The notes beneath the pieces were generated by a model that was not told the origin of the DNA, searched no databases, and was given only the letters and a program-made list of their open reading frames with translations. Positions 21,458-26,297 of a stretch of 64,000 nt of DNA are shown in pieces; positions within the stretch are counted from its first letter, which is position 1, and the number at the start of each line of letters is the position of its first letter. The position numbers were made by a program, and so were the translations under genes. The stretch comes from Candidatus Aquiluna sp. IMCC13023 (lineage in GTDB: Bacteria; Actinomycetota; Actinomycetes; Actinomycetales; Microbacteriaceae). The stretch is from contig NZ_AJKR01000002.1 in assembly GCF_000257665.1 (NCBI RefSeq), positions 248,001 through 312,000 on the forward strand, in the 5' to 3' direction.

Positions 21458-22274
21458 GAGTTACGAGCTAAAAACACCAGACCAGATTCGCAAAATGCGA
21501 TTAGCAGGCCTGCTCACCGCAGAGGCTCTTGCAAATGTCAAGGCGGCCATTAGGCCCGGGGTCACAACCCTTGAACTTGATCAAATAGCGGAAAAGACGA
21601 TTCGCGCCGGTGGCGGAATTCCAAACTTTCAGCTTGTGCCTGGATATTTTCACACCGTATGCGCATCCGTGAATTCAACCGTGGTCCACGGAATTCCGTC
21701 CAGTCTTGTTTTGGCAGCAGGGGATTTAGTTTCAATTGACTGTGGGGCGGAAATTGACGGCTGGAATGGTGACAGCGCCTTTTCCATGGTGGTGCCGGGT
21801 GCAACCGGTGACGTGGCGCTTGAGCGCCAACGGCTCTCGGATGTGTGTGAGGGTTCCCTCTGGGCTGGAATAGCTGCTCTGGCGACCGCAAAGAAACTAA
21901 ATGAAGTAGGAGTCGCGGTTCAAGATTACGTCCTTGCCGAAGGGCCCTACGGGATTTTAGAGCAGTACGTGGGTCACGGCATCGGGCGATCTATGCATGA
22001 AGATCCGGCTGTATTCAATTATCGAGTTCGTGATGCTGGGCCAAAAGTGCAGCCTGGGCTCTGTATCGCGATCGAACCGATGATCACTTTCGGCGATCAA
22101 GACACTTTTGTTATTGATGATGATTGGGGTGTTGCCACGCGCGATAATTCGGATGGTGCTCACTGGGAGCACTCGGTTGCAGTGCACGACGGTGGTATTT
22201 GGGTTCTGACCGCGGTGGATGGTGGTGCTGAAGGTTTAAAGCCCTTTGGGATTACCCCAGTCTTCTTGGATTAG
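21450..22274 (+). CDS. map: Methionine aminopeptidase, type I
   Basis: Removes the N-terminal methionine from new proteins. 274 residues from ATG 21450 (MRKSYELKTPDQIRKMR); an in-frame GTG at 21444 would add two residues. The metal ligands are visible: Asp in SIDCGAEIDGWNGDSAF, His in GHGIGRSMHEDP, Glu in IAIEPMIT and in HWEHSVAV. Its start lies inside the end of adk. Confidence 0.96.
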   Translation: MRKSYELKTPDQIRKMRLAGLLTAEALANVKAAIRPGVTTLELDQIAEKTIRAGGGIPNFQLVPGYFHTVCASVNSTVVHGIPSSLVLAAGDLVSIDCGAEIDGWNGDSAFSMVVPGATGDVALERQRLSDVCEGSLWAGIAALATAKKLNEVGVAVQDYVLAEGPYGILEQYVGHGIGRSMHEDPAVFNYRVRDAGPKVQPGLCIAIEPMITFGDQDTFVIDDDWGVATRDNSDGAHWEHSVAVHDGGIWVLTAVDGGAEGLKPFGITPVFLD

Positions 22275-22398
22275 CCACTAGCTTTCGCGGCAATTACCCC
22301 TTAGAATTGCGACTTGGCGTTTCTGCGTGAAAACCCCTGCGATTTTTGTAAGTTTTTGCGCGTTCGTAACGCTAAACCAGTAGTGATTAAGTGAGTGC

Positions 22399-22620
22399 AT
22401 GGCCAACAAAGATGGCGTTATCGAGATCGAGGGATCGGTCGTTGAAGCCCTACCCAATGCAATGTTCCGGGTGGAGCTAACCAACGCCCACCTAGTTTTA
22501 GCCCACATCTCGGGAAAAATGCGTCAGCACTATATCCGCATTCTCCCCGGAGACCGCGTGATAGTTGAGCTGTCGACATACGATCTGACTCGCGGCCGCA
22601 TTATTTACCGCTACAAGTAG
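22399..22620 (+). CDS. infA: Translation initiation factor IF-1
   Basis: Single OB-fold factor that binds the 30S A-site; 73 residues ([20 protein letters not shown]). Separated from map by 124 bp that contains a weak GCAATT/AATTGC dyad (22290-22310) but no promoter I can defend. Only a poor ribosome site (AAGTGAG) precedes it. It heads the infA-rpmJ-rpsM-rpsK-rpoA-rplQ group. Confidence 0.96.
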
Positions 22621-22631
22621 AAAGAAAGAGC

Positions 22632-22745
22632 ATGAAGGTTAATCCAAGCGTCAAGAAGATCTGCGACAAGTGCAAGGTCATTCGTCGTCACGGAAACGTG
22701 ATGGTTATTTGCGAGAACCCTCGTCACAAGCAGCGCCAGGGCTAA
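22632..22745 (+). CDS. rpmJ: 50S ribosomal protein L36
   Basis: 37-residue zinc-binding protein. It starts [15 protein letters not shown] and retains the ligand set C11, C14, C27, H32, i.e. the zinc-containing form. AAAGAAAGAG precedes the ATG, 11 bases after infA. Confidence 0.96.
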
Positions 22746-22804
22746 CAAGCCCCAGCTAAAAACTAAATAGTAAAAGCCAGCACCAAGCGAAAGCTAACCC
22801 TCGG

Positions 22805-22861
22805 TTTGAAGGCCGGGGCTCAACTTGCCAAGTTGAGATGGAGCTGTCCCAGACCTTCAAA
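22805..22861 (+). promoter_or_regulatory. Long hairpin in the rpsM leader (candidate r-protein control RNA)
   Basis: Three stacked inverted repeats. The outer arms TTTGAAGG (22805-22812) and CCTTCAAA (22854-22861) are perfect. The middle arms GGGG (22815-22818) and TCCC (22847-22850) pair with one G-T. The inner arms CTCAACTT (22819-22826) and AAGTTGAG (22830-22837) are perfect with a GCC loop. That is about 20 bp in a 57-base element ending 17 bases before rpsM, with a 9-base bulge on the 3' side. An A-tract rather than a T-tract follows, so it is not a plus-strand terminator. Confidence 0.6.
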
Positions 22862-22878
22862 AAAACGAAAGACAAATA

Positions 22879-23256
22879 ATGGCACGTATCTCCGGAGTGG
22901 ATATCCCTCGCGACAAGCGAGTGTTGATTTCCCTTACCTACATCTATGGAATTGGCCCAACTCGCTCACGCGAGATTCTGAAGGCCACCAACATCTCAGA
23001 GGACATCAGAGTTAAAGACTTGACTGATGATCAGTTGATCGCACTTCGCGACAACATTGATCAGAACTTCAAGGTTGAGGGTGACCTTCGCCGTGAAGTT
23101 GCAGCAGATATCCGCCGCAAGGTTGAGATCGGCTCATACGAAGGAATTCGTCACCGTAAGGGCCTTCCGGTCCGCGGACAGCGCACCAAGACCAATGCAA
23201 GAACACGCAAGGGTCCAAAGCGCACCGTAGCAGGCAAGAAGAAGGCAGCCCGCTAG
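22879..23256 (+). CDS. rpsM: 30S ribosomal protein S13
   Basis: 30S head protein contacting P-site tRNA; 125 residues. [15 protein letters not shown], the helix-two-turn-helix region and the basic C-terminal tail ([20 protein letters not shown]) are diagnostic. AAAGAC is its weak ribosome site, right after the leader hairpin, which may gate access. Confidence 0.97.
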
Positions 23257-23287
23257 TCGCGGCTCATAGGATCTAGGAGAAAATCAA

Positions 23288-23692
23288 ATGGCAGCCCCTA
23301 AAGCATCCGCGGCAGCACGCAAGCCTCGTCGCAAGGACAAGAAGAATATTCCAGTAGGTCAGGCGCACATCCGCTCGACCTTCAACAACACCATCATCAC
23401 TATTACCGACCTAACCGGAGCAGTTATCTCCTGGTCGTCTTCTGGAGATGTTGGCTTCAAGGGTTCGCGTAAGTCAACCCCGTTCGCAGCTCAGATGGCA
23501 GCGGAGTCGGCTGCCCGCAAGGCTCAAGAACACGGTATCCGCAAGGTTGATGTCTTCGTCAAGGGCCCTGGCTCTGGACGAGAGACTGCAATTCGTTCGC
23601 TGCAGGCCGCCGGCCTGGAGGTTGGCTCAATCAGCGATGTGACCCCACAGGCTCACAACGGTTGCCGCCCTCCAAAGCGTCGCCGCGTATAA
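23288..23692 (+). CDS. rpsK: 30S ribosomal protein S11
   Basis: Platform protein that lines the mRNA exit; 134 residues with a typical Ala/Lys/Arg-rich N-terminus and the C-terminal [16 protein letters not shown] lies upstream. rpsD (S4), which follows rpsK in many bacteria, is absent here; rpoA is next. Confidence 0.97.
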
Positions 23693-23714
23693 CTTCAATA
23701 AAAATCTAACGCCT

Positions 23715-23772
23715 CACGCACACAGGTGCCCGCCTGCGTGTTTCCATGACGAACATCAAATAGTGGATGTTC
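23715..23772 (+). promoter_or_regulatory. Two hairpins in the rpsK-rpoA spacer
   Basis: Arms CACGCA (23715-23720)/TGCGTG (23735-23740), and GAACATC (23751-23757)/GATGTTC (23766-23772) with an 8-base loop. The second ends 6 bases before the AAAGGA site of rpoA. The 98-bp gap is long for this dense array, at the place where rpsD is missing. Confidence 0.4.
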
Positions 23773-23790
23773 AGATGAAAGGAACCAATA

Positions 23791-24780
23791 GTGCTAATTG
23801 CACAGCGCCCCACATTGCACGAAGAAGTTCTAGGACCAAACCGCTCACGATTCATCTTGGATCCGCTTGAGCCAGGATTCGGCTACACCCTCGGTAACTC
23901 GATGCGACGCACTTTGCTCAGCTCGATTCCAGGTGCAGCTGTAACAAACATTCGCATCCAAGGTGTCAGCCACGAGTTTTCAACAATCGCGGGTGTCAAG
24001 GAGGACGTTGTTGAGGTAATTCTTAACATCAAGAACCTCGTAGTTTCCTCTGAGCACGATGCTCCTGTGGTTGCTCACTTGACTAAGAGTGCTGCTGGCC
24101 CAGTAACGGCCGCGGACATCCAGGTCCCAGCCGGTGTTGAAGTTCACAACCCAGAGTTAGTTCTTGCAACCTTGAACGCTAAGGGCAAGCTAGAGATCGA
24201 GTTCATCATTGAGCGCGGTCGCGGCTATGTTCAGGCATCTCAAAACCGCAACCCAGATGCCGAAGCCGGAGTAATTCCAGTTGACTCCATCTACAGCCCA
24301 GTGCTGAAGGTTTCCTACCGCGTCGAGGCGACTCGTGCCGGTGAGTTCACTAACTTTGACAAGCTGATTGTTGACGTGGAGACCAAGCAGTCGGTTGAGC
24401 CACGCGATGCAGTTGCTTCCGCAGGTTCGACATTGGTTGAATTGTTTGGCCTAGCCAAGGAATTAAACGATGAGGCTGAAGGAATTGAAATTGGACCGGC
24501 ACCAGTCGAAATAGCTGCTTCCAATGAACTAAGCACCCCAATTGAGGATTTGGACCTAACGGTTCGTTCTTATAACTGCCTGAAGCGCGAGGGAATCAAC
24601 ACCGTTCTAGAGCTAATTGCTCTAAGCGAGGACCAGTTGATGAACATTCGCAACTTCGGCTCCAAGTCCGTTGATGAAGTCCGCGACAAGCTCACCGAGC
24701 TTGGGCTGAAGTTCAAGGACGCCGTCCCGGGTTTTGATTCCGCTTACTTCGGTGGCGGCTTCGATGAAGACCAGATCTAA
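23791..24780 (+). CDS. rpoA: RNA polymerase alpha subunit
   Basis: Alpha subunit that dimerises to nucleate polymerase assembly; 329 residues. The N-terminal domain has [28 protein letters not shown], and the C-terminal domain (from about residue 250, [19 protein letters not shown]) binds DNA and activators. GTG start with AAAGGA upstream. Confidence 0.98.
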
Positions 24781-24805: not shown

Positions 24806-25414
24806 ATGCCTACACCAACTAAGGGACCACGCCTAGGAGGCGGACCTGCTCACGAGCGCTTGATGCTTCGTAACATGGCCACCTCACTATTCATGCACAA
24901 GCGAATCGTCACAACCGAGACCAAGGCGAAGCGCCTGCGTCCGGTTGCCGAGCGTTTGGTGTCGTTCGCAAAGCGCGGCGACCTAGCGGCTAGACGTCGA
25001 GTCATGAGACAGATCACGGACAAGAACATCGTCCACGAGCTCTTCACCGAGATCGCACCTCTAGTTGCTGGCCGTGAGGGCGGTTACACCCGCATTACCA
25101 AGCTTGGCTTCCGTAAGGGCGACAACGCTCCTATGGCAGTTATCGAGCTTGTGTTGGAGCAGGTACAGCCCAAGCCAAAGACTTCCAAGTCAAAGCCAGT
25201 CAACAACGTCGCAACCACCGCAGTAGCTGAGCCAGTTATTGAAGAGGCTGTTGAGGAAGCTGTTGAAGCCCCAGTGGCCGAAGCTGAGACTGCTGAGGCG
25301 ACTGAAGCTCCAGCGGCAGAGGTTACCGAAGCTCCGGCTGAGGAAGCAACTGAGGCTCCGGCAGCAGAAGTTACCGAAGCTCCAGCCGAAGAGGCTGAAG
25401 AGCCAAAGGCTTAG
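24806..25414 (+). CDS. rplQ: 50S ribosomal protein L17 with acidic C-terminal tail
   Basis: The core, residues 1 to about 118 ([20 protein letters not shown]; ending near AVIELVLEQ), is a normal L17. A further 80 residues are low-complexity, dominated by Glu, Ala, Pro, Thr and Val (APAEEATE-type repeats), giving 202 residues. The tail is strongly acidic, odd for an RNA-binding protein, and opposite in charge to the S17 and L15 tails. AAGGAG upstream. Confidence 0.94.
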
Positions 25415-25433
25415 AGCCACGAAGAAGATTGAC

Positions 25434-26297
25434 ATGAACAAGCCCGCTGGTGATTCTGGCGGGCTTGTTCGCTTTCGGGTGGATCTTGCTTACGATGGAA
25501 CGGACTTTGCCGGGTGGGCAAAGCAGCCCGGTCTTCGGACCGTTGAGGGCGACTTGGTCAAGATGTTTGAAAAGATTTTTGGAAAAAGTAAGACCGATTT
25601 TGATATGCGCGTTGCTGGTAGAACCGATTCCGGCGTGCACGCGAAGCACCAAGTTTGTCACCTGGATATTCCGGAGAAGCGGCTATCTCGCATAGGTCGG
25701 GACCCACTAAATGCCTTCAGGCTGAACACCCTGATTTCCGAAGATTTGATTATTCTGGACATTCTCCCGATAACTTCTGATTTCGACGCCAGGTTCAGCG
25801 CCGTAGGCAGACGCTATCGATACACGATCGCCGATCCAAAGTTTAAAAAAGACCCAATGATGGTGCGGTACGCCCTCACTCACAAGCGCGTTCTTGATGT
25901 AAACCTCATGAACTCCGCCGCTAAAACACTGGTCGGCCTGAACGATTTTGCAGCATTCTGCAAACCCAGAGCCGGTGCAAGCACAATTCGAAACCTTACG
26001 GTTTTTGAGGTTCTGCGGCGAGAAGATGGTCTCATCACAATAGATATTCACGCGGACGCTTTTTGCCACAATATGATTAGGTCGTTGGTGGGATCAATTA
26101 TTGCGGTTTCAGATGGACGTCTCAGTGTTCAGGACCTTGTCGCGGTCCAAAAAACAGGCAAACGTGCCAATAAATTCAAGACAATTGACGCTAAGGGCTT
26201 GAGTTTGGAGTCAATTGACTACCCGGAACCGACTGAGTATGCCAAGCAGGCGATCTTAAACCGCGTGATGCGAGAAACCAGTGATAATTCTGTTTGA
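25434..26297 (+). CDS. truA: tRNA pseudouridine(38-40) synthase
   Basis: Modifies uridines 38-40 in the anticodon arm of tRNAs. 287 residues from ATG 25434 (MNKPAGDSGGLVRFRVDLAYDG). The catalytic Asp is D65 in AGRTDSGVHA. A longer open frame runs upstream into rplQ but is only rplQ in another frame. The first dozen codons lie in a 12-bp perfect inverted repeat. A GTG at 25479 beyond it is an alternative start, but would remove the first beta strand, so ATG 25434 is preferred. The stop overlaps the rplM -35 box. Confidence 0.93.
   Translation: MNKPAGDSGGLVRFRVDLAYDGTDFAGWAKQPGLRTVEGDLVKMFEKIFGKSKTDFDMRVAGRTDSGVHAKHQVCHLDIPEKRLSRIGRDPLNAFRLNTLISEDLIILDILPITSDFDARFSAVGRRYRYTIADPKFKKDPMMVRYALTHKRVLDVNLMNSAAKTLVGLNDFAAFCKPRAGASTIRNLTVFEVLRREDGLITIDIHADAFCHNMIRSLVGSIIAVSDGRLSVQDLVAVQKTGKRANKFKTIDAKGLSLESIDYPEPTEYAKQAILNRVMRETSDNSV
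25436..25470 (+). terminator. 12-bp perfect stem-loop over the truA start
   Basis: GAACAAGCCCGC (25436-25447) pairs perfectly with GCGGGCTTGTTC (25459-25470) across an 11-base loop. It lies 21 bases after the rplQ stop, where a terminator for the r-protein operon is expected, yet inside truA codons 1-13. Only a weak T-rich run (GCTTT) follows, so it may be a leaky terminator or a translation-blocking hairpin for truA. Confidence 0.5.

Follow-up and report, generated by a model that had tools for sequence, protein, structure and literature searches.

A conserved pseudoknotted leader RNA upstream of rpsM in most actinomycetes examined, with a predicted role in ribosomal protein control

Introduction

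Control of translation by a protein-stabilised pseudoknot is known for the leader of the Escherichia coli alpha operon, as described in the alpha-operon part of a review (PMC10931766), which characterizes the control of this operon in bacteria where rpsD lies elsewhere, such as the Bacilli, as unknown. Almost nothing is known on ribosomal protein (r-protein) control in Actinobacteria, according to the available part of another publication (PMC8470358). Among the leaders compiled in Table 1 of Eckert and Weinberg 2020 (PMC7247131), Actinobacteria are represented by those of L17 and L31 only, and no actinobacterial rpsM or rpoA leader is listed in the accessible portion of a screen from 2024 (PMC11109978), in which Streptomyces avermitilis was covered. 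Our own search of the main texts of open-licence PMC papers retrieved no publication on a leader of rpsM or rpoA in Actinobacteria and no published case of self-control by S13 or S11; an alignment printed in subscription journals or in supplements may exist.

Here, we analyze a 64-kb stretch of DNA from Candidatus Aquiluna sp. IMCC13023 (hereafter, the window), in which rpmJ ends at position 22745 and rpsM starts at 22879, and the 133-nt gap between them was originally suggested to contain a possible undescribed control RNA shaped as a three-tier hairpin (22805-22861). Comparative analysis of this gap across actinomycetes supports a conserved control RNA that is not listed in Rfam, but with a different geometry.

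Results

Locus and fold of the leader

The leader RNA occupies positions 22776-22861 of the plus strand, on which all the features described below are located, and is followed by rpsM (S13; 22879-23256), the presumed first regulated gene, by rpsK (S11; 23288-23692), presumably regulated as well, and by rpoA (23791-24780), the latter two open reading frames having been read by eye. The covariance model R2, trained on 40 relatives with the same set of hairpins, matches 22776-22860 with 70.1 bits, a score that is not independent because the window sequence belongs to the training set. In this branched RNA, helix P1 (22776-22784 paired with 22840-22848, with two mismatches in the window copy) encloses three hairpins. 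These are P2, a GAAA-loop hairpin at 22786-22795 in which 22786-22788 pairs with 22793-22795 in the minimum-energy fold; P3, formed by 22799-22804 and 22813-22818; and P4, at 22819-22837, in which CUCAACUU (22819-22826) is complementary to AAGUUGAG (22830-22837) over 8 bp. The loop of P3, UUUGAAGG (22805-22812), is the 5' strand of a pseudoknot, the 3' strand of which, CCUUCAAA (22854-22861), is preceded by a conserved CAGA linker (22850-22853) and ends 17 nt ahead of the rpsM start codon. Most of the relatives have GGAGG/CCUCC at the knot, so that the window pair UUUGAAGG/CCUUCAAA represents a compensated change.

The letters on which the original prediction was built, that is, the length of the gap, the end of the stretch 17 nt ahead of rpsM, the 8-bp complementarity of the outer strands and the inner 8-bp stem that is P4 here, are all borne out, but the shape drawn from them is not. 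The outer strands form the pseudoknot rather than a nested stem, and the relatives display a branched RNA starting at 22776 in place of three stacked stems. The proposed middle stem (22815-22818 with 22847-22850) is paired in 54% of the cells among 40 relatives, with covariation not above that of shuffles, and is an artefact of folding 57 nt in isolation. Nor is the folding unusually stable: the energy of 22800-22866 is ordinary (z -1.75, with 11 of 200 shuffles as good), as is that of the whole gap (z -1.39; 18 of 200), the minimum-energy fold of which is P1-P2-P3-P4. A scan of 22200-24000 detected no promoter-like site, and the gap contains no terminator-like site. The A-tract after the element, originally invoked as an argument against termination, is not general, with relatives carrying other letters at that place.

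Compensatory changes in the helices and the pseudoknot

Helices P1 to P4 and the knot are backed by compensatory changes. Two alignments carry most of this evidence. The first, A1, is a MAFFT alignment of P4-less loci from outside the genus, in which the pairs of P1, P2, P3 and the knot were counted; it includes 56 of the 81 non-genus family loci with a readable gap, the 25 others having been omitted as redundant, P4-bearing, with P1 misplaced by trimming or, in one case, truncated at a contig end. The second, A2, consists of 40 P4-bearing loci, window included, out of 45 trimmed sequences (L004, L010, L012, L122 and L133 were dropped as near-duplicates or because of a misplaced P1), and P2 is not counted in it because MAFFT leaves this hairpin unaligned there. 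Trimming required 4/5 knot pairs for the family loci or 5/5 for the P4-form set, one locus of which, L135, is not at rpsM.

In A1, 19 of the 23 pairs vary on both sides and 95.3% of the cells are paired; none of 500 shuffles reached such values, and structures slid along the alignment pair in 37-56% of the cells. The corresponding figures for A2 are 22 of 27 pairs and 91.8%, against 0/500 shuffles and 34-50% for slid structures. All nine pairs of P1 vary on both sides in both alignments, P2 covaries among the 56 P4-less relatives, P3 is paired in 100% of the cells of A2 with covariation in 4/6 pairs, and all five counted pairs of P4 covary in A2. RNAalifold, run on A1 with no structure supplied, recovers P1, P2 and P3. 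Against a null simulated on a tree, 7/23 pairs in A1, 2/27 in A2 and 2/27 in A4 reach E<0.05, whereas no pair outside the structure does so in any of the three.

For the pseudoknot, the knot column 63/154 of A2, which played no part in trimming, is paired in 40 of 40 sequences as C-G (23), A-U (8), U-A (8) or G-C (1). In A4, which comprises 100 sequences aligned to a model lacking the knot, six knot positions are paired in 99-100 of the 100 rows and three of them show covariation, although the rows were chosen for good R2 scores, which favours consensus letters. A fairer test is provided by 80 named loci taken without selection on R2 score: of the 75 named leaders in which P3 can be recognised, 72 have a complement of the loop of at least 5 nt downstream, compared with 10.0 expected. 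The knot reads UUCCAGG/CCUGGAA in two Lentzea loci. The nearly invariant unpaired letters of the leader are CAGACC and ACACC; within the CAGA linker, the A is invariant and the G is present in 97/100 rows of A4. Stems neither covarying nor conserved in close relatives had been named in advance as grounds for dropping the idea of a functional RNA, and the RNA as drawn here shows both covariation and conservation in these relatives.

Distribution across actinomycetes

Among the genomes surveyed, rpsM was located in 18 of 22 from the genus and in 243 of 249 from the family, taken to be the Microbacteriaceae, and 103 family leader loci (L001-L103, two duplicates among them) were read. The knot was detected by script in 99 of the 103 and by eye in L066, L093 and L094, where the rpsM start pattern failed; the remaining locus, L041, is truncated at a contig end and is the only one that failed the trimming criterion. 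An independent sequence profile, derived from 27 leader sequences all outside the genus, gives a single hit in the window, at 22795-22859 (E 8.2e-8). Of 14 further loci, it detects 13, the exception being L020 from another genus. Judged by sequence, the window copy is thus a member of a conserved leader family. The model R1, trained on 56 sequences without P4, gives the window a low score of 13.0 bits (E 0.88 over the 64 kb), less than the 16.3 bits of a chance match, and leaves the window leader unmatched at E<=1 genome-wide; R2 was built because the window has the P4 form.

In a search of the order with R1, 20 of 21 new outside loci were at rpsM, and a further search added 27 loci of which 7, all within the class, were at rpsM. 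At E<=1, R2 matches 187/246 genomes of the class and 83/96 genera, and the best 29 outside loci of the class search are all at rpsM. In a phylum-wide draw at E<=0.1, R2 matched 20/25 genomes in the class and 4/221 outside it; the R1 and R2 matches beyond the class are attributed to chance, the four from this draw not being at rpsM. Among the 80 named loci, 75 match R2 at rpsM with E<=0.5, five of them weakly (L271, L262, L248, L259 and L270; E 0.02-0.34), and the genera matched include Mycobacterium, Mycolicibacterium, Rhodococcus, Nocardia, Gordonia, Micromonospora, Streptomyces, Arthrobacter, Cellulomonas and Glycomyces. Actinokineospora is not matched by R2, yet a wholly changed knot, CCCCAGG/CCUGGGG, can be seen by eye. 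Two Blastococcus loci and a Jiangellaceae MAG have a short rpmJ-rpsM gap and no leader, and Pimelobacter, also without an R2 match, has P3 but no knot of at least 5 nt. Full-length R2 matches in the named loci end 17-28 nt ahead of the rpsM start. Across these sets the RNA lies consistently 5' of r-protein genes (29/29, 20/21 and 75/80), and the knotted rpsM leader is kept in most of the actinomycetes examined.

As a side observation, the tblastn-style rpsM matches in one genus (g69; genomes G089, G149, G200 and G245, loci L086, L089-L092 and L245) include an in-frame TAG or extend past a stop, which may merely reflect the C-terminal end of the query.

A second hairpin upstream of rpoA

The operon, originally described as compact apart from the rpmJ-rpsM gap, also opens between rpsK and rpoA, where a 98-nt gap holds a second conserved hairpin, GAACAUC-AAAUAGUG-GAUGUUC (23751-23772). 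The corresponding model, R3, matches 23732-23793 with 51.9 bits, the window being part of its training set. The hairpin consists of 5-9 bp with the loop AUAUAGCG or AAAUAGCG or near variants, lies directly 5' of the rpoA Shine-Dalgarno sequence in the rpsK-rpoA or rpsD-rpoA gap, and has a near-invariant loop, CAUAUAGCGG / CAAAUAGCGG (for example, L193:4974-4993 and L258:4974-4997). It is found in 76/76 distinct rpsK-rpoA gaps, and its strict motif occurs before rpoA in 65/80 named loci, once each on the scanned strand. Six of the seven pairs vary on both sides and 95.2% of the cells are paired, with 0/500 shuffles as high on either pairing or covariation; in alignment A5, the loop motif served to select the named rows that have rpsD. 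R3 matches 134/148 genomes of the class. Of 28 genomes in which the positions of the two models were compared, 27 have the R3 match on the strand of the R2 match and 993-1889 nt downstream of it, and the remaining one has the two matches on different contigs. With the rpoA hairpin, the operon may possess a second leader. Upstream of this hairpin, members of the genus carry a further inverted repeat in the rpsK-rpoA gap (window 23711-23738; relatives L004-L019; for example, GCAUUCAGG..CCUGGAUG in L008).

boxA-like sequences

A boxA-like sequence, AACUAAAUAG, is located at 22761-22770, upstream of P1; in the same genome, the rrn leader carries CTTTGAGAACTCAACAG, which we take to be the actinobacterial boxA. 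Within the family, 68 of the 92 distinct rpmJ-rpsM gaps contain AACT[ACG]AA, as do 18 of the 33 distinct rpsK-rpoA gaps (2.9 and 1.4, respectively, expected from shuffled gaps); the boxA-like sequence is absent from the window's own rpoA gap. It is rare outside the family, with 10/80 named loci showing a similar pattern. L050 and L065 carry two tandem copies of the boxA-like AACTNAA(T/C)A, and so does L060 as read by eye, with AAGTAAATA.

Comparison with Rfam

In keeping with the original suggestion that the control RNA is undescribed, Rfam 15 gives no above-threshold match at the rpsM leader in 17 sources, and nothing in Rfam matches at the rpoA hairpin in the window and six named loci. Homology to Alpha_RBS was considered and rejected: matches of 16-20 bits (cut-off 38) were obtained in 3/10 relatives, mainly with the coding part of rpsM. 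Elsewhere in the window, a sub-threshold match to Thr_leader (25370-25473; 24.9 bits, cut-off 55) coincides with a GC-rich hairpin at the rplQ end, followed by a short T-rich stretch, and is likely to be a chance match or a terminator-like hairpin.

Discussion

We interpret the rpsM leader as a cis-acting r-protein leader RNA in which a knot stabilised by S13 or S11 is predicted to repress rpsM translation, and put the probability of this reading at roughly 0.72. P1 would close the junction of P2, P3 and P4, and pairing of the P3 loop with the segment immediately 3' of P1 would yield a compact knot close to the rpsM start codon (17 nt off in the window and 17-28 nt in the named relatives), presumably at the edge of the footprint of the initiating 30S subunit. 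A free r-protein of the operon, S13 or S11, would most likely then bind and stabilise the knotted form and thereby block or trap initiation at rpsM and the coupled genes. Regulation at translation through protein binding is most likely, given the distance of the knot from the start codon and the lack of a terminator-like site in the gap.

With respect to the ligand, S13 or S11 is the likeliest candidate, preferred to S4 and L17 on grounds of parsimony only, because the leader is kept whether or not rpsD is in the operon. The point made originally, that a ligand such as S13 or S11 has to be considered with rpsD outside the operon, therefore stands: in the genome of the window, rpsD is on another contig, beside alaS (read by eye). 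In all cases examined, the leader is followed by rpsM, and in the window by the genes of both S13 and S11. Among the 80 named loci, rpsD is near rpsM in 54, downstream of it in 50 and upstream in four Glycomyces, and was not seen in 26; the leader is present in 49 of the 54 and in all 26 of the others, although L238 among the latter is too short to tell whether rpsD is nearby. L17 has its own leader, RF03132, before rplQ in Streptomyces (1/6 loci scanned). Local alignment yielded no signal of 16S rRNA mimicry (306/500 shuffles as good for the consensus, 165/500 for the window), so nothing on this side points to a particular ligand.

Binding by S4, supplied in trans by an rpsD gene located elsewhere, would be the closest parallel to E. 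coli, where this protein binds the alpha-operon pseudoknot at the same place, as stated in the relevant part of the review cited above (PMC10931766). The similar topology of the two leaders and the proximity of rpsD in many of the named loci, mostly downstream of rpsM, lend some credit to this possibility; however, the leader is equally well kept in the 26 loci where rpsD is elsewhere, and R2 detects no second copy at rpsD in the window genome (apart from the leader itself, it has one match, with E 7), so that S4 would control others and not itself, and we consider S4 an unlikely ligand. A different kind of switch, in which the (A)CCUCC strand would pair either with the P3 loop or with the AGGAG of the rpsM Shine-Dalgarno sequence such that the knot turns translation on, draws on the ability of the CCUCC strand to pair with the tail over 4 nt on average. 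It fares poorly where the strand has changed: with CCUUC (20 loci), the loop match holds at a mean of 6.75 nt but the tail match drops to 3.45, the window has no AGGAG, and Lentzea retains CAGGAG in the tail with a CCUGGAA strand, all of which makes such a switch improbable.

Hardly better are the prospects of an element that works without a protein, as a standby site or as a structure for the processing or stability of the mRNA. The location of a compact fold 17-28 nt ahead of the start codon would be compatible with such a role, but the near-invariant unpaired CAGACC and ACACC suggest that these letters are recognised and do not simply belong to a barrier. The three-tier stacked hairpin of the original prediction is hardly credible as the functional form, being the minimum-energy fold of 22800-22866 alone and not of the whole gap, with an unconserved middle stem, and mutually exclusive with P1 and P3, which covary.

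Tentatively, a broader scheme can be entertained in which the actinomycete alpha operon possesses its own RNA control, comprising a pseudoknot read by S13 or S11, the rpoA hairpin and, in the family of the window, boxA antitermination. Under this scheme, the rrn-like boxA before both leaders would load the antitermination complex, which would keep the untranslated leaders from Rho. In any case, the rpsM leader makes control of the alpha operon and of r-proteins in Actinobacteria testable in Streptomyces and non-pathogenic mycobacteria.

Several known leaders invite comparison. The predicted S4 leaders of Clostridia and Fusobacteriales, described in the relevant section of Eckert and Weinberg (PMC7247131), are located upstream of rpsM-rpsK-rpsD-rpoA-rplQ but belong to other phyla; the rpsM leader has no match in Rfam 15, although these families are perhaps not in that release. 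The mycobacterial rpsO leader, according to the available part of its description (PMC8470358), is also an actinobacterial r-protein leader with a pseudoknot needed for control, but of another gene and with another ligand, S15. Within the same operon in Streptomyces, the r-protein leader RF03132 (L17-Actino-Proteobacteria) is only 56 nt long, is found before rplQ and has no match at rpsM, its sole match being in L258.

The closest counterpart is the alpha leader of E. coli (RF00140, Alpha_RBS), which occupies the same rpmJ-rpsM junction and shares with the actinomycete leader a nested pseudoknot, formed between a hairpin loop inside the outer stem and nucleotides 3' to this stem. The helices and letters of the two RNAs differ: in E. 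coli, ACGGGC 48 nt upstream pairs with GCCCGU in codons 2-3, so that the 3' strand of the knot lies in the coding start, whereas in actinomycetes it lies 17-28 nt upstream, and rpsD is within the operon in E. coli but outside it in the window. RF00140 matches neither the window, up to E 5, nor any of six named loci, and there is no sequence likeness between the two leaders beyond the coding start. Most likely, the actinomycete leader works on the same principle as its E. coli counterpart but is built on another scaffold. The rpmJ-rpsM junction would then have two nested-pseudoknot solutions, a comparison of which should help to address whether leaders of this kind are inherited or have been reinvented.
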